From positions 62,001 through 126,000 of the forward strand of contig JANQKR010000003.1 in NCBI GenBank assembly GCA_028281025.1: 64,000 bases of DNA, given 5' to 3'. This DNA comes from Croceivirga sp. (GTDB lineage: Bacteria > Bacteroidota > Bacteroidia > Flavobacteriales > Flavobacteriaceae). The notes under the pieces were generated by a model, which ran no database searches, was not told the DNA's origin, and saw only the letters and a program-made list of their open reading frames with translations. Below are positions 16,353 through 23,808 of the stretch, in pieces. Numbering within the stretch: the stretch's first letter is position 1; each line of letters starts with the position of its first letter. Made by a program: the position numbers and the translations under genes.

Positions 16353-16400
16353 GGTATCGAGAATACGGTTACGAAGATAAAAGTGCTATTTCTCGATACC
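16353..16400. repeat. Dispersed palindromic repeat, copy B (inner arms only)
   Basis: GGTATCGAGAA and TTCTCGATACC form a perfect 11-bp inverted pair around 26 bases. The same arms occur inside copies C and D. The outer CGTCA-TTCGAGTG arms of the family are not found here, so this may be a worn or truncated copy. It lies between the convergent secreted-protein and S24-repressor genes; the rest of 16244-16469 shows nothing else recognisable. Confidence 0.6.
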
Positions 16401-16469: not shown

Positions 16470-17222
16470 CTAATTTTTAAGCTGTCTCTTTAATTCTTCC
16501 ATCGATTCCTGCAATTGTCTGAGCAGGCCATGATTGCTTGTAGGATTTAAATCAAAGGTAAGTTTGCTACTGACTTCCCAAATCTCTTGGATTTGAAAGG
16601 GTTTGATGTCATACGGTGGATAATTTTCATTGGTGGATATCAGGGTAATGTTATTGGAGTTTGGTCGTTTTTCTATCTTTTTGACCATAACGGAATCCTG
16701 AAGCACCACCACGTACATTTTATTGGGACTTACATGATCTATATGTTCTATGGCACGGGCCATCACCCAATCGTTGGGATATAGATTGGGGAGCATACTG
16801 TCCCCTTCCACCTGAAAACCCCGATAGGTGGCATTGCGAAACTCTGGAATGGGGAGGTCAAAAGCGGGTAATTGTTTGTACCAACTGGTGTCCGCAATGT
16901 TTTGGGGATACCCTGCCGCAGCTTTGGCGTTGACCAAAACCATGTTATCATTGTCCTGACTATCTATGGTAACTACTTTGGGGATGACACTGGTTTTGGC
17001 AGTGTCCAAATGTTTGGCATCACTCTCCCCAAACAGCCACAACGGATTTATTTTAAACTGTCGCAACAATTCCGAAACCACCTTACCGGACAATTTGGTC
17101 TTTCCCCGTTCAATATCCGCAGTGGTATTGGAAACCCCCAATAACTTGGCAAATTCTGCCTGGGTATAGCCTAAATCCCTTCGTATTTCAGAAAACCGCT
17201 TAAGTGTCAATTCATTTTCCAT
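16470..17222 (-). CDS. LexA-like transcriptional repressor (XRE helix-turn-helix plus S24 peptidase)
   Basis: 250 residues from the ATG at 17222; a TTG two codons upstream is less likely. Residues about 5-62 are an XRE-type helix-turn-helix (TQAEFAKLLGVSNTT). Residues about 95-225 are an S24 self-cleaving domain: Ala-Gly cleavage site in AKAAAGYP (Ala103-Gly104), nucleophile Ser142 in EGDSMLP and general base Lys181 or Lys182 in DSVMVKK. The C-terminus is a short charged helix. S24 repressors cleave themselves when stimulated by RecA filaments and release their operators. Four copies of a palindrome in the divergent promoter and the repair genes on the other side make it the likely regulator of the locus and of itself. 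Confidence 0.9.
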   Translation of the reverse strand: MENELTLKRFSEIRRDLGYTQAEFAKLLGVSNTTADIERGKTKLSGKVVSELLRQFKINPLWLFGESDAKHLDTAKTSVIPKVVTIDSQDNDNMVLVNAKAAAGYPQNIADTSWYKQLPAFDLPIPEFRNATYRGFQVEGDSMLPNLYPNDWVMARAIEHIDHVSPNKMYVVVLQDSVMVKKIEKRPNSNNITLISTNENYPPYDIKPFQIQEIWEVSSKLTFDLNPTSNHGLLRQLQESMEELKRQLKN

Positions 17223-17238
17223 ACCCAAATATAGGGTA

Positions 17239-17319
17239 TTTGGAATATTTCCAAAAATATTTTTGGACTATTTCCATATTTAGGAATATTTCCATACTTT
17301 TGGTTGGAATATTTCCAAG
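17239..17319. promoter_or_regulatory. Four-operator array in the divergent promoter of the S24 repressor and repair operon
   Basis: Four 17-bp sites share the form TTTGGAA-TAT-TTCCAAA (two 7-bp arms, constant TAT centre): 17239-17255 (perfect arms), 17262-17278, 17280-17296 and 17303-17319. Centres are 23, 18 and 23 bases apart. The first site begins 17 bases from the repressor start; the last ends 3 bases before the ATG of the radical-SAM gene, so it covers that gene's translation start region. The spacing of about two helical turns suggests repressor dimers binding side by side. The assignment of these sites to the S24 protein is inference from position. Confidence 0.85.
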
Positions 17320-17322
17320 TAG

Positions 17323-18588
17323 ATGAACTTTGAACGTATTAAGGAGAAACTGAACATTTTGGCGGATGCTGCCAAATATGACGTTTCCTGTGCCAGTAGC
17401 GGAAGTACCAGGACCAATAAAAACAAAGGTCTGGGCAACGCTACCCGTATGGGAATCTGCCATAGTTATACGGAAGATGGTCGTTGTGTTTCCCTTTTAA
17501 AAATATTGCTGACCAATCATTGTATTTATGATTGCGCCTATTGTGTGTCCCGCAGGAGCAACGACATCAAAAGGGCCGGTTTTAGGATTCAGGAAGTAGT
17601 GGATTTGACCATCAACTTCTATCGTAGAAACTATATCGAGGGGCTTTTTTTAAGTTCCGGAATCTTTAAAAGTCCCGACCATACCATGGAACGCTTGGTC
17701 CGTGTGGCCAAAAAATTGCGGGAAGAGGAGAATTTTAATGGTTACATCCATTTAAAGTCCATTCCGGGATGTAGTGACGAATTGATGTACGAGGCCGGGT
17801 TGTATGCGGACCGATTGTCGGTCAACATAGAAATCCCCACCATTTCCGGCCTTAAACTATTGGCCCCGGAAAAGGAGCATCAAGACTTTACCAAGCCCAT
17901 GCGTAAAGTGAAAAATGAAATTGTCCGGTACCATAGTGAACGAAAGCTTATCCGAAATACTCCAAAATATGCCCCCGCAGGGCAAAGCACACAAATGATC
18001 GTAGGTGCCACTGGGGAGACCGATAAGGATATTATGTATTCCGCTACCTATTATTATAAGACCTACAGTATGAAACGGGTCTATTATTCGGGTTATGTCC
18101 CGGTCTTGGAAGATAGTCGTTTGCCTTCCCTAACGGCCAAAGTACCCATGCTACGGGAGAATAGATTGTATCAAACGGATTGGTTGTTGCGCTTTTATGG
18201 GTTTGCCGTAAATGAACTATTGAACGATGCCCATCCCAATTTGGATGTAGACGTGGATCCCAAGCTTTCTTGGGCTTTGCGGAATTTACAACATTTTCCC
18301 GTGGACATCAATAAGGCGGACAAGCGAATGCTGGCACGGGTACCAGGGTTGGGGATGCAGTCCGTTGGGAAGATTTTGAGTGCGAGACGATTTCGAAAAT
18401 TGAACTGGGACCATCTCAAAAAAATGGGGGTGGCCCTCAACCGTGCCAAGTATTTTATGGTGTGTGATTCCCGCCATTGGGAACGCCGCGATTTGGATGC
18501 GGATAAAATTAAAGGACTGATTTTGCAGAACTCGTCCGGGAAGTTCAGAAATCAGTACAGTCAGCAATTGTCATTGTTTAACCAATGA
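17323..18588 (+). CDS. Putative DNA modification/repair radical SAM protein (TIGR03916 type)
   Basis: 421 residues. The radical-SAM cluster motif CX3CX2C is present (Cys67, Cys71, Cys74 in HCIYDCAYC), with an upstream conserved stretch CASSGSTR and CHSYTEDGRC containing additional Cys residues. Residues about 326-373 form a helix-hairpin-helix DNA-binding unit (INKADKRMLARVPGLG). This combination matches the family named putative DNA modification/repair radical SAM protein, whose members sit next to a TIGR03915 partner, often fused to uracil-DNA glycosylase. The lesion handled is not known; photoproduct-lyase-like chemistry is one possibility. It begins 3 bases after the fourth operator. The partner lies 690 bases downstream. 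Confidence 0.9.
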   Translation: MNFERIKEKLNILADAAKYDVSCASSGSTRTNKNKGLGNATRMGICHSYTEDGRCVSLLKILLTNHCIYDCAYCVSRRSNDIKRAGFRIQEVVDLTINFYRRNYIEGLFLSSGIFKSPDHTMERLVRVAKKLREEENFNGYIHLKSIPGCSDELMYEAGLYADRLSVNIEIPTISGLKLLAPEKEHQDFTKPMRKVKNEIVRYHSERKLIRNTPKYAPAGQSTQMIVGATGETDKDIMYSATYYYKTYSMKRVYYSGYVPVLEDSRLPSLTAKVPMLRENRLYQTDWLLRFYGFAVNELLNDAHPNLDVDVDPKLSWALRNLQHFPVDINKADKRMLARVPGLGMQSVGKILSARRFRKLNWDHLKKMGVALNRAKYFMVCDSRHWERRDLDADKIKGLILQNSSGKFRNQYSQQLSLFNQ

Positions 18589-18598
18589 TTGGAAAATT

Positions 18599-18731
18599 CG
18601 TCAATTCGAGTGATTTTATTGGAGTTGAATGTAGGGAAACTCAGAAAATAGTATCGAGAATGGAATTTTTGAAACATATGCCTGCTTGTTCTCGATACGA
18701 TTCCAACGAGTTGGAACCACTAGAACTGACG
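18599..18731. repeat. Dispersed palindromic intergenic repeat, copy C
   Basis: Outer inverted arms CGTCAATTCGAGTG and CACTAGAACTGACG enclose inner arms GTATCGAGAA (18651-18660) and TTCTCGATAC (18689-18698). A short reading frame across it is incidental. The repeat begins 10 bases after the radical-SAM stop codon and may attenuate transcription into the partner gene. Confidence 0.75.
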
Positions 18732-18756
18732 TGGAAAGTCAAAAAGCTAGGATACC

Positions 18757-18930
18757 ATGGAAAGAACACTAATGAAAACGAACTATTTGGAACGTAAGCG
18801 CCAGGCCATTTTGGACATGGGCTATACGTATGTCAGATTTCGAAGCAGGGCTAAAAAGTCGCTGCGAACACTAAAAAGAATCATGCAAAACAATATAGGT
18901 CATTTCGAATGTCACATAGAGCGCAGTTGA
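18757..18930 (+). CDS. Small basic protein, unknown (tentative)
   Basis: An open frame of 57 codons too short to stand out by length. It encodes a strongly basic helix-prone peptide (YLERKRQAILDMGY, RSRAKKSLRTLKRIM) with an internal alternative ATG at 18772. Codon use over the first 45 codons looks like that of neighbouring genes, but the last 10 codons run into a separate palindromic repeat (18899-18997), so the natural C-terminus may have been replaced. It could be a small DNA- or RNA-associated protein of the repair operon, a truncated gene, or chance. Confidence 0.35.
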   Translation: MERTLMKTNYLERKRQAILDMGYTYVRFRSRAKKSLRTLKRIMQNNIGHFECHIERS

Positions 18931-18997
18931 AACGGATACGGGAAATCCAGGTTCCTACTTTCCCTTCAACAGGATCGTGGCGACACGTTGAAATGAT
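18899..18997. repeat. Second type of palindromic intergenic repeat (tentative)
   Basis: Near the ends, GTCATTTCGAAT and CGTTGAAATGAT are imperfect inverted arms, and the interior includes AGCGCAGTTGAA and CCCTTCAAC, which pair in part. The general look (TCATTTCGA with AGCGnAGT) is familiar from dispersed repeats in flavobacterial genomes, and a short related fragment occurs at 20139-20160. It is the only long copy in this window. Confidence 0.45.
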
Positions 18998-18999
18998 AA

Positions 19000-19287
19000 C
19001 ATCAAAAAACAAAATATCATGAAAAACTCGTTACTCGTACCAATTCTTTCCTTCTTCCGCAGTATAAGAAGCCATTTCCGTAAAAAATTCCTGAAGCCTT
19101 GGAAGGAATTTAGGAAGTGGATTCAGGTTTTTGCCGACAAAGCAAAAAATACCTCGGAAGAAGTGCCCTTTCTTTTGGTTCGTTTTCTTTGGGCAAGCAA
19201 AGAAAATAAACAAGAAGCTTATCTCTACGTAGTTCCTTGCCGCACTGCCACAAATAAAGCATCAAAAAACAAAATATCATGAAAAAC
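19000..19287. repeat. 28-bp direct repeat flanking a 232-bp inserted sequence
   Basis: The 28 bases at 19000-19027 are repeated exactly at 19260-19287, starting CATCAAAAAACAAAATATCA and ending in ATGAAAAAC, thus including a start codon. The 232 bases between them (19028-19259) have no terminal inverted repeats. On the minus strand they read through frames with low-complexity aromatic and Lys-rich peptides, not a recognisable protein. The structure fits either insertion of a sequence with a long target duplication or a tandem duplication followed by replacement. The second copy supplies the start codon of the TIGR03915 gene. Confidence 0.8.
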
Positions 19288-20085
19288 GCAACAATGGATT
19301 CCCATCTACCCGGGAGTGACAAAAAAACAACTCTCATTTATGATGGGAGCTTCAACGGCTTTCTTACCGCTGTCTTCATTGCCTTTGAAGAAAAATTAAA
19401 CATGGCGGACATTCAAAAGAACGGTCAGGCCCAAAATGGACTGTTTTCCGAGAACGAGACCATCTTTACCAATGTCGATAAGGCCAAGCGGGTGTGGAAT
19501 GGGGTCCGTGCCAAAAGTTATAACGCCATTAGCAACATTTACTTTGCCTTTTTAAGTGAAACCGAAGGCGTGGAACGGCTTCTTTTTGAATACATCAAAA
19601 AACTGATGGCCCAGAAGGGAAAACAGGCCGATTTTTCCGATGGGACCGTTCTGTACATTTCACAGTTGGCCAGAAAAGTAGGACGTGAAAAACACCGTAT
19701 GGAAGCCTTTGTCCGTTTTCAATTGACCAAGGACAATATTTATTTTGCCAATATAGAACCGGACTTCGATGTATTGCCCTTAATTTCCAAACATTTTCGA
19801 AATCGGTATGCCGACCAGCAATGGTTGATCTATGATGTAAAGCGACGTTATGGGATTTTTTATGATTTGGATGGAGTGGAAATCGTTTCCCTAAACCTGG
19901 ACAAAATCCATTTTAACCGTACCCGAAAGAGCAAGGCCTTTACGGATGGGGAATACGAATATCAAGACCTTTGGAGCAATTATTTTAAAAGCACCCACAT
20001 TAAATCGCGAATCAATAGAAAATTGCATACGCAACATATCCCCAAGCGCTATTGGAAGTACCTTTCTGAGAAAAAGGCGGTCTAG
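19279..20085 (+). CDS. Probable DNA metabolism protein (TIGR03915/DUF4130 family)
   Basis: 268 residues. The N-terminal LIYDGSFNGFLTAVFIAFEEK is the family hallmark, followed by conserved VWNGVRAK, YIKKLMAQKG, VLYISQLARKVGREKHRMEAFVRFQ and ending with IKSRINRKLHTQHIPKRYWKYLSEK. The family is the standard genomic partner of the radical-SAM repair protein found upstream and in other bacteria is fused to a uracil-DNA glycosylase-like domain; that domain is absent here. Start at 19279 lies inside the duplicated 28 bases; an alternative ATG at 19294 is possible. Its exact reaction is not known. Confidence 0.88.
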   Translation: MKNATMDSHLPGSDKKTTLIYDGSFNGFLTAVFIAFEEKLNMADIQKNGQAQNGLFSENETIFTNVDKAKRVWNGVRAKSYNAISNIYFAFLSETEGVERLLFEYIKKLMAQKGKQADFSDGTVLYISQLARKVGREKHRMEAFVRFQLTKDNIYFANIEPDFDVLPLISKHFRNRYADQQWLIYDVKRRYGIFYDLDGVEIVSLNLDKIHFNRTRKSKAFTDGEYEYQDLWSNYFKSTHIKSRINRKLHTQHIPKRYWKYLSEKKAV

Positions 20086-20138
20086 ATTTTCTATGCTTCT
20101 ATTAGTGTATGTGAACCTTATGAAAGTAAATTAGCGTG

Positions 20139-20162
20139 CCCTGAGCGCAGTCAAGGGGTGCG
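20139..20162. repeat. Fragment of a dispersed intergenic repeat
   Basis: The bases CCCTGAGCGCAGTCAAGGGG form a short imperfect hairpin (CCCT against AGGG) in the gap between the TIGR03915 gene and the AlkC-like gene. Sequences of this kind are common as intergenic repeats in related genomes, from memory. It may mark the boundary between two transcription units. Confidence 0.35.
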
Positions 20163-20184
20163 GAAAAAACAAGCAATCTAAAAA

Positions 20185-20955
20185 GTGGCTTACAAACAAC
20201 TCAAATTATGGTTTGACCGGGACTTGGCGGTACTATTGGCCGATAAACTGCTAAGCAATGGAGTTCAATTTGACAAAGATGCTTTTGTCCATATCGCCAC
20301 CCAAGGGCTGGATGATCTGGAACTCAAAGGCCGCGTGGAGTATATCGCTGATGCGTTGTACCAGCATCTGCCCTTTGATTATCAAGAGGCAATTTCAAAA
20401 CTTGTTGCCATTCTTGGACCTGAAAATGAAAAGGAAACGGGCATGTTCAAGGAGTTTTACTGGGTGATGCCCATTGCCAAATATGTGGAGAAATATGGTT
20501 TGGCCGATTTTAATACCTCCATGAATGCCATTTACGAAATTACCAAGCGCAATACCGGGGAATATACTATTCGTCCCTTTTTGGAAAAGCACCCTGAAAA
20601 AACCTTAAATCTGCTGGAGCAATGGGCAAAGGACCCCAACAAACATGTCCGGCGATTGGCCAGTGAAGGGGTACGGCCCCGACTGCCCTGGGCAGCAAAA
20701 TTGGACCAATTCATTCAGGACCCCAAACCCATTTTGCCCATTTTGGACACCCTTAAAGACGACCCCAGTAAATATGTGCAAAAGTCAGTGGCCAATTGTA
20801 TCAACGATATTCTAAAGGACAATACTGAAGTTGGGAAAACATTGATTGAAAGTTGGGTGCCCAACGCCTCCAAAGAACGGAAATGGATCATAAAACATGC
20901 CCTACGGAATTTGGTAAAGAATGGGGATGAATGGGCAACGGGAATAGTGAAATAG
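20185..20955 (+). CDS. AlkC-like DNA alkylation repair protein (HEAT-like repeats)
   Basis: 256 residues of tandem helices. The stretches HVRRLASEGVRPRLPW and DDPSKYVQKSVANCINDILKD match the AlkC group of the AlkC/AlkD superfamily, which excises N3- and N7-alkylated purines by wrapping DNA in a HEAT-repeat solenoid. The frame opens at a TAA just upstream and the first usable start is GTG at 20185. The N-terminal 70 residues are helical and diverge more. Location after the radical-SAM pair on the same strand suggests membership of the same repair island, although a 99-base gap with a repeat fragment separates them. Confidence 0.83.
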   Translation: MAYKQLKLWFDRDLAVLLADKLLSNGVQFDKDAFVHIATQGLDDLELKGRVEYIADALYQHLPFDYQEAISKLVAILGPENEKETGMFKEFYWVMPIAKYVEKYGLADFNTSMNAIYEITKRNTGEYTIRPFLEKHPEKTLNLLEQWAKDPNKHVRRLASEGVRPRLPWAAKLDQFIQDPKPILPILDTLKDDPSKYVQKSVANCINDILKDNTEVGKTLIESWVPNASKERKWIIKHALRNLVKNGDEWATGIVK

Positions 20956-21048: not shown

Positions 21049-21714
21049 CTAAATGAAATAATACCATAAAATAACTATAAGAGGTGTAATCCAAGTTAGA
21101 GCATAATATTGAACAAATCCGAGATGATTATATTCAAAATTTATTCCAAAACTCTCTATTCTGGAATAGCTTTTTGCTTCAAGTTTAAATGGTTCTAAAC
21201 CCTCACTCATTAGAAATTTCTTATAGTCAATTAGGCTGTGTATTTGATCATCTTTAATGCACATTGAATACTTTTTGCTAAGCTCATTGACTTCTACCAG
21301 TAACTTTTCCGAATCTTTATAAAGACTTTTAGTTGTGAATAAGAGTTTGTCTAAAATTCTGTCTATTTCGGAAGCTTTTTGTTTGAATTTTTGGGCTCTA
21401 TGCTTGAAATCTTTACTAGCGACTATTTGTCCATAAATCAATATCACTATAGATAATGAAACACTAATTAAGGAAAAGTCTTCATAATCAAATTTATTTG
21501 TTTTGGAAAATGCGAACCAAATATTTACTATGACCAAATAAGCGGATAGGAATCCAAGCGTAGTTTTCGATAGCTCTGAATGTCTTAGTAATCTTTTGCT
21601 TGCGGCATATTTGCAGCCTTTTGTAATTCTCAATCGCATTCTAAAATTTTCAATATAATCATCAGGTAAGCCAGAGCTTGCCTTTATTAAGTTTTCATTT
21701 TTCAAAATGCTCAT
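21049..21714 (-). CDS. SLATT-like membrane protein, probable orphan effector, AT-rich
   Basis: 221 residues. Two adjacent membrane helices (about residues 52-70 and 81-99) are followed by a long amphipathic helical region and a final hydrophobic segment at the C-terminus (YALTWITPLIVILWYYF). The N-terminal RMRITKGCKYAASKRLLRHSE ahead of the helix pair, and the segment after it (DFKHRAQKFKQKASEIDRILD), resemble SLATT proteins, membrane effectors of predicted nucleotide-sensing conflict systems. No SLOG, reverse transcriptase or cyclase partner is adjacent. Base composition differs sharply from its neighbours: two sampled 60-base lines inside it hold 17 G/C each, against 27 in a line of the nearby deoC. 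Recent acquisition is likely. Confidence 0.6.
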   Translation of the reverse strand: MSILKNENLIKASSGLPDDYIENFRMRLRITKGCKYAASKRLLRHSELSKTTLGFLSAYLVIVNIWFAFSKTNKFDYEDFSLISVSLSIVILIYGQIVASKDFKHRAQKFKQKASEIDRILDKLLFTTKSLYKDSEKLLVEVNELSKKYSMCIKDDQIHSLIDYKKFLMSEGLEPFKLEAKSYSRIESFGINFEYNHLGFVQYYALTWITPLIVILWYYFI

Positions 21715-23694: not shown

Positions 23695-23808
23695 CGTCGA
23701 TTCGAGTGATTTGCGGAACACAAATTGAATCGAGAATAGGTTTACCATACGTGTTCTCGATACCATTCCAACCCGATAGTTATCGGGTTGGAATTACTCG
23801 AACTGACA
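23695..23808. repeat. Dispersed palindromic intergenic repeat, copy D
   Basis: Outer arms CGTCGATTCGAGTG and TACTCGAACTGACA, inner arms GAATCGAGAA and TTCTCGATAC, as in copy C. This copy also has a perfect 14-bp inverted repeat, ATTCCAACCCGATA and TATCGGGTTGGAAT (23765-23794, 2-base loop), a very stable hairpin. Copy C has a degenerate version of the same segment. Confidence 0.75.

Follow-up and report, generated by a model that had tools for sequence, protein, structure and literature searches.

In members of the Bacteroidetes, S24 repressors with a CI-type helix-turn-helix (HTH) are the regulators of the SOS response, and in 2021 they were named "non-canonical LexA"; one cluster of them, found mainly in Flavobacteriaceae, pairs with the operator motif GGA-N5-TCC (PMC8565304, to whose main text all statements attributed to it here refer). 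In electrophoretic mobility shift assays, binding by the Salegentibacter agarivorans repressor required both dyads and the length of the spacer, mitomycin C induced the repressor gene and predicted targets, and the regulon that was predicted contains dinB along with a gene for Pol III alpha, as well as a two-gene COG1573-COG4277 operon, viz. a radical SAM (rSAM)-"UDG" pair, where UDG stands for uracil-DNA glycosylase (PMC8565304). The present work concerns a 64,000-nucleotide stretch of Croceivirga sp. (contig JANQKR010000003.1, positions 62,001 to 126,000), referred to as the window, in which the gene for an HTH-S24 repressor is divergent from a gene for an rSAM protein (TIGR03916), followed by genes for a TIGR03915/DUF4130 protein and an AlkC homologue. 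We take COG1573 and COG4277 to be the DUF4130-containing protein and the rSAM protein, respectively.

When this locus is compared with the S. agarivorans system (repressor WP_075324850.1), both repressors have HTH_3 and S24 domains, an Ala-Gly site and a Ser-Lys pair, in both genomes GGA-N5-TCC is present before the repressor's own gene and before dinB-dnaE, and the rSAM-"UDG" operon is a predicted target (PMC8565304); no difference was found in this comparison by motif, domains and residues. UmuDAb and HdiR are likewise non-LexA S24 repressors of damage genes, but their regulons are small and consist mostly of error-prone polymerases, unlike the one considered here (PMC8565304). The logic of the S24 autoprotease is also common to canonical LexA, from which the present repressor differs by a CI-type HTH in place of the LexA winged helix and by another operator. 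Based on its sequence features, the locus is very probably the autoregulatory hub of a Flavobacteriaceae SOS response and its repressor a member of the non-canonical LexA group. An earlier note on this stretch had proposed LexA-like control of these genes by DNA damage and had regarded S24 control of an rSAM pair as unusual. The core of this proposal is well supported by the residues, the operator array, the linkage and the sites before dinB-dnaE described below, but its novelty does not stand, as the family has already been described and its control of the COG1573-COG4277 operon predicted (PMC8565304). Because the published system matches the locus, the mechanism that was proposed is right in outline whereas the claim of unusualness is not.

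The repressor and its predicted operator array

The repressor matches HTH_3 (PF01381) in its N-terminal part (E-value 8.3e-9) and Peptidase_S24 in its C-terminal part (9.7e-13), no LexA winged-helix domain or LexA equivalog was found for it in Pfam and TIGR scans, and a profile search of this genome gave a single repressor match. The intact cleavage site and catalytic residues described in the earlier note are borne out, A103-G104, S142, K181 and K182 being invariant in all 18 aligned repressors (that from the window and 17 more, each representing a further genus). This numbering assumes a start at the ATG at 17222, the alternative being a TTG at 17228, and of the two lysines we take K181 to be that of the catalytic dyad.

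The key feature of the locus, which the earlier note overlooked, is an array of four GGA-N5-TCC palindromes (O1 to O4, Table 1) in the 100 bp between the two start codons, with a spacing of 23, 18 and 23 bp. When this 100-bp intergenic stretch was shuffled 2000 times with its dinucleotides preserved, the mean number of such sites per shuffle was 0.04 and four sites were reached in none of the shuffles; elsewhere in the window there is no match to TGGAATATTTCCA within one mismatch. Each of the two genes is preceded by a predicted -7 box of the form TAnnTTTG, which we take to be the Bacteroidetes consensus. O1 lies just upstream of the box of the repressor gene, whereas the box of the repair operon has O3 just upstream and O4 just downstream of it; given this geometry, binding of a repressor would be expected to block both promoters.

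Table 1. Coordinates of the genes and predicted regulatory elements of the locus in the window.
Feature	Positions	Strand	Evidence
HTH-S24 repressor, 250 amino acids	16470..17222	-	Pfam HTH_3 and Peptidase_S24
Repressor predicted -7 box TATATTTG (read on - strand)	17226..17233	-	TAnnTTTG, constant offset in kin
Predicted operator O1 GGAATATTTCC	17242..17252	.	GGA-N5-TCC match
Predicted operator O2 GGACTATTTCC	17265..17275	.	GGA-N5-TCC match
Predicted operator O3 GGAATATTTCC	17283..17293	.	GGA-N5-TCC match
Repair-operon predicted -7 box TACTTTTG	17295..17302	+	TAnnTTTG, constant offset in kin
Predicted operator O4 GGAATATTTCC	17306..17316	.	GGA-N5-TCC match
Radical SAM protein, C-terminal helix-hairpin-helix, TIGR03916	17323..18588	+	675 bits (cut-off 343.5); PF04055
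TIGR03915/DUF4130 protein	19279..20085	+	TIGR03915 267 bits; DUF4130 1.1e-51
AlkC-type HEAT-repeat alkylpurine DNA glycosylase homologue, third gene, GTG start	20185..20955	+	PF08713 1.6e-8

Conservation of the locus in Flavobacteriaceae

Two sets of genomes were used for comparison. In a survey of 149 Flavobacteriaceae genomes, one per genus, TIGR03916 was present in 33, and the rSAM loci were retrieved for 29 of the 32 genomes other than that of the window. In 17 of these 29 loci the repressor gene is divergent from that for the rSAM protein, in all 17 cases with DUF4130 and with two to four sites between, so that the repressor is found at the rSAM locus in 18 of 30 genera when that of the window is included. 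By coordinates alone, the repressor is adjacent to the rSAM gene in one further genome (G073) and about 4 kb away in another (G111). The linkage, whose loss in relatives the earlier note had set as a refuting result, is thus conserved. For the second set, a scan of named genomes yielded at least 536 relatives of the repressor, and the best 80 loci were analysed; their titles are mostly Muricauda, Allomuricauda, Flagellimonas, Croceivirga, Croceitalea and Maribacter, and being near kin they are therefore not independent. Two of these loci (L092 and L112) are seemingly on the same contigs as two others (L041 and L042). Two further loci (L056 and L113) are separate records whose contigs are both entered as 1270456 long and which differ in their DUF4130 genes, possibly through a collection error.

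Among the 80 best loci the rSAM gene is divergent from the repressor in 65 and DUF4130 is present in 79, and at least two sites precede the repressor gene in all 80 and at least three in 79. The 65 loci with a divergent rSAM gene carry four sites (34 loci), three (30) or two (1), a perfect copy of O4 being missing in 30 of them, and the 15 others have at least three sites each. The intergenic gap in the 65 loci varies from 97 to 716 bp, the spacing of the sites is constant to within 1 bp, and the boxes keep their place as well: in 64 loci that of the repressor (CAAAnnTA, i.e. TAnnTTTG on the repressor strand) starts 16 bp ahead of the first site and in one 17 bp ahead, and in 62 of 64 that of the operon starts 12 bp past the third one. 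In the 17 loci from other genera the sites are spaced less strictly (mostly 22 or 23 bp, then 18 to 20, the last sometimes 19) and some sites are degenerate; by manual count TAnnTTTG follows a perfect site by 12 bp in 14 of them and by 11 bp in one (L034), and two (L032 and L040) show none.

Other sites in the genome and the extent of the regulon

Paired GGA-N5-TCC sites occur in this genome 8 times in the forward and 11 times in the reverse orientation, as compared with once each for the reversed pattern that served as the control. Besides the array in the window there are 12 further places with paired sites, of which 11 start inside an open reading frame (ORF) of 70 amino acids or more, the threshold used in the ORF sketch. 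The only intergenic pair (C3:48504-48535) consists of two sites 19 bp apart and is located directly before dinB (IMS, 4.4e-43), which is followed by a Pol III alpha-type dnaE (DNA_pol3_alpha, 4.4e-65). When single sites were examined in a one-mismatch/W5 form, three others were found outside ORFs (sites L006, L007 and L020). One of these (L007), a single TGGAATTATTCCA site at G000:C8:42004-42016, lies about 90 bp before a gene for a CPBP/Rce1-like membrane protease, and it is possibly a further target or a chance match.

Several observations weigh against the locus being an SOS hub of the published kind. The assignment to the published cluster is based on the motif, the domain layout and the residues. 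The 300 bp upstream of the single recA of this genome contain no GGA-N5-TCC, and the genome lacks SRAP (PF02586), which has been published as a predicted member of the regulon. In S. agarivorans recA was likewise not induced by mitomycin C (PMC8565304). The single-site scan gave 141 sites per strand against 113 for the reversed pattern, and because this excess over the control is modest the regulon cannot be bounded and more targets are possible. Further, 12 of the 29 rSAM loci from other genera lack an adjacent repressor. Two of these (G100 and G087) have two sites before the rSAM gene and a strong repressor homologue elsewhere in the genome, which speaks for the hub, but of the 10 genomes in which the 200 bp before the rSAM gene hold no site, two (G063 and G010) have a strong repressor nevertheless, so that the correspondence between sites and repressor is imperfect. 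The other published motif, CTAA-N5-TTAG, was found before none of the 12 rSAM genes without an adjacent repressor (200 bp upstream, one mismatch allowed).

In view of the siteless recA, the tight linkage to the operon, AlkC as its third gene and the detection of only two intergenic site clusters in the genome, the repressor could be a local one, which controls the divergent repair operon alone in response to alkylation or another cue and is not a global SOS regulator. However, this is unlikely, as two tandem sites precede dinB-dnaE, the cleavage residues are invariant and the published regulator of this group acts globally in the SOS response (PMC8565304). If the locus is, as we consider, the autoregulatory SOS hub, then a dimer of the repressor would occupy the four operators overlapping the two divergent promoters, and in its bound state would keep both the rSAM-DUF4130-alkC operon and its own gene silent, while the same repressor would occupy the two operators before dinB-dnaE. 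Upon DNA damage, RecA filaments would trigger cleavage at Ala103-Gly104 through the Ser142-Lys181 dyad, the operators would become empty, and the repair genes and the repressor would be transcribed until the damage is gone. Binding to these four sites, cleavage, derepression and transcription of the operon, as well as the roles of the rSAM and DUF4130 proteins, are what we infer for this locus, the damage-induced derepression by analogy with relatives in which it is largely established.

DUF4130 as the constant target

The gene identities and the divergent layout given in the earlier note are confirmed by the Pfam and TIGR matches and by a structure match for the AlkC homologue, whose best matches in the PDB are AlkC (5vi0/5vhv, 1.5e-42, residues 18-251); the match of the rSAM protein to HHH_3 is below the cut-off of that family. 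The earlier note had focused on the rSAM pair, and this emphasis has to be shifted to DUF4130. Of the 80 best loci, 15 lack an rSAM gene beside the repressor, and in 14 of these DUF4130 is the first ORF to follow the sites. In 13 of 14 genomes with such loci that were searched, TIGR03916 was not detected anywhere at a threshold of E 0.001, the completeness of the assemblies not being given, and two positive controls (L051 and L054) were both detected; in all 13 genomes DUF4130 is retained downstream of three or four sites. In Maribacter sp. ACAM166 (L122), the sole rSAM copy detected is located elsewhere and has an internal stop (G162:C72:135988-137208), and the locus has no DUF4130. The repressor sites are kept in L122, and the next gene is a different one (transposase-like by eye). 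On a tree of the repressors with weak resolution (stars on 9 of 77 inner branches), the presence of the rSAM gene requires 10 changes; the labelling of the tree scores as lacking rSAM also L122, in which the copy elsewhere is broken, and L080, which was outside the genome search. DUF4130, and not the rSAM protein, is thus the constant target, and the rSAM protein is dispensable.

In 5 of the 14 rSAM-free loci the DUF4130 protein is only 200-202 amino acids long and lacks its C-terminal tail (three of these were checked and all are above the TIGR03915 cut-off, two barely so), whereas the short form is found in none of the 65 loci with an rSAM gene (L093 judged by the span of the match). The Fisher value of 9e-5 for tail loss against rSAM absence is overstated, because the loss represents only two changes on the tree. 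The AlkC gene is present in 19 of the 80 best loci, placed after DUF4130, and in four rSAM-free loci (L085, L088, L097 and L113) a tail-less DUF4130 of 200 amino acids under three sites is directly followed by AlkC, which is an alternative repair operon.

In other phyla TIGR03915 is fused to UDG domains, which favors an alternative that concerns the target genes and not the switch, viz. that the rSAM and DUF4130 proteins form a base excision system of the uracil-DNA-glycosylase type. The COG1573 label points in the same direction (PMC8565304). However, no UDG family is matched by the partner: besides DUF4130/TIGR03915, the protein in the window gave only unrelated matches below threshold, and none of the 46 members of the DUF4130 alignment has a UDG or DHH match in Pfam. 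In addition, TIGR03914 is above cut-off in none of the 33 rSAM genomes (weaker matches occur in 4) and has no match in this genome, so that the locus shares TIGR03916 and TIGR03915 with the TIGR03914-linked (UdgX-type) rSAM systems but lacks TIGR03914. Because there is neither a UDG match nor TIGR03914 above cut-off, the base-excision label fits poorly here and this alternative is improbable.

A different lead comes from the predicted structure of DUF4130 (AlphaFold model from 46 sequences, mean pLDDT 83, pTM 0.76), the model of the rSAM protein being poor (mean pLDDT 43.5). In a Foldseek search of the PDB, the top match and the only one under 0.001 was the PAP phosphatase 8a8k (E 4.2e-4, TM 0.43, root-mean-square deviation 8.2), which we take to be of DHH type. 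It was followed by the DHH domain 5yh1 (3.8e-3) and by RecJ2, RecJ and Cdc45 (E 0.1 to 2), intermixed with RAD51 and others. In the viral library BFVD, five matches were under 0.001 (TM 0.30-0.36), four of them annotated as DHH phosphohydrolases and the fifth as an exopolyphosphatase. The N-terminal YDGxFNGFLT of DUF4130 can be aligned by eye onto the PDGDAIGS motif of NrnA-type proteins, but the histidine of that motif, the second aspartate and the DHH triad have no conserved counterpart in DUF4130, and hhalign of DUF4130 against DHH proteins gave no support (probability 1.4% and 0.1%). These results suggest, as a lead at the level of the fold and with a negative profile comparison, that DUF4130 may have a DHH-like fold without the metal site; Cdc45 is an example of a DHH-like fold that lacks this site. 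A tentative proposal, which may well prove wrong, is that the constant output of the SOS hub is DUF4130 as a catalytically degenerate protein of the DHH superfamily (RecJ/Cdc45-like) acting on damaged or single-stranded DNA, with the rSAM protein and AlkC as optional modules and the C-terminal tail as the part on which the rSAM protein docks. DUF4130 has been called a predicted mutagenesis-related enzyme in PMC3765255, and this was the only source for TIGR03916, TIGR03915 or DUF4130 that our literature search returned; it returned nothing linking DHH with DUF4130.

Neighboring features and the question of phage origin

An inverted-repeat element of 46-48 bp (GTATCGAGAA...TTCTCGATAC) flanks the repressor-rSAM pair at 16354-16399 and 18651-18698, the second copy lying within the 690-bp gap between the rSAM and DUF4130 genes, and a partial copy is present at 23727-23763. 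None of 100 shuffles gave a match, and the element resembles a dispersed repeat of the REP type. AlkC is directly followed, on the opposite strand, by a gene for a SLATT_5 protein (21049-21714, 117 bits), described in Pfam as a SMODS- and SLOG-associated 2TM effector. No Rfam match at gathering thresholds was found in the whole window.

Single-protein queries of IMG/VR, which cover close relatives only, gave one relative of the repressor and none for DUF4130 or the rSAM protein. That the repressor is a prophage repressor stranded by chance near host repair genes, as its CI-like HTH-S24 architecture might suggest, is most improbable, as it is found at the locus across more than half of the rSAM genera with synteny and operators conserved, and the IMG/VR relative has no rSAM, DUF4130 or AlkC match in the 7.7 kb examined.

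Significance of the locus

The locus is real, conserved and mostly explained already. As far as the literature search shows, the regular divergent multi-site layout, the dispensability of the rSAM protein and the DUF4130 fold lead are new; the divergent four-site layout and the versions with AlkC or without rSAM were not found in the main text of PMC8565304, although its supplements may hold the layout. The link to an SOS system already in print removes the claim of novelty and sharpens the question of what the rSAM and DUF4130 proteins do. The rSAM-free loci represent a natural experiment, and the fold lead for DUF4130 hints at what to assay. Further, the compact divergent promoter would serve conveniently as a reporter of the SOS response in Flavobacteriaceae.

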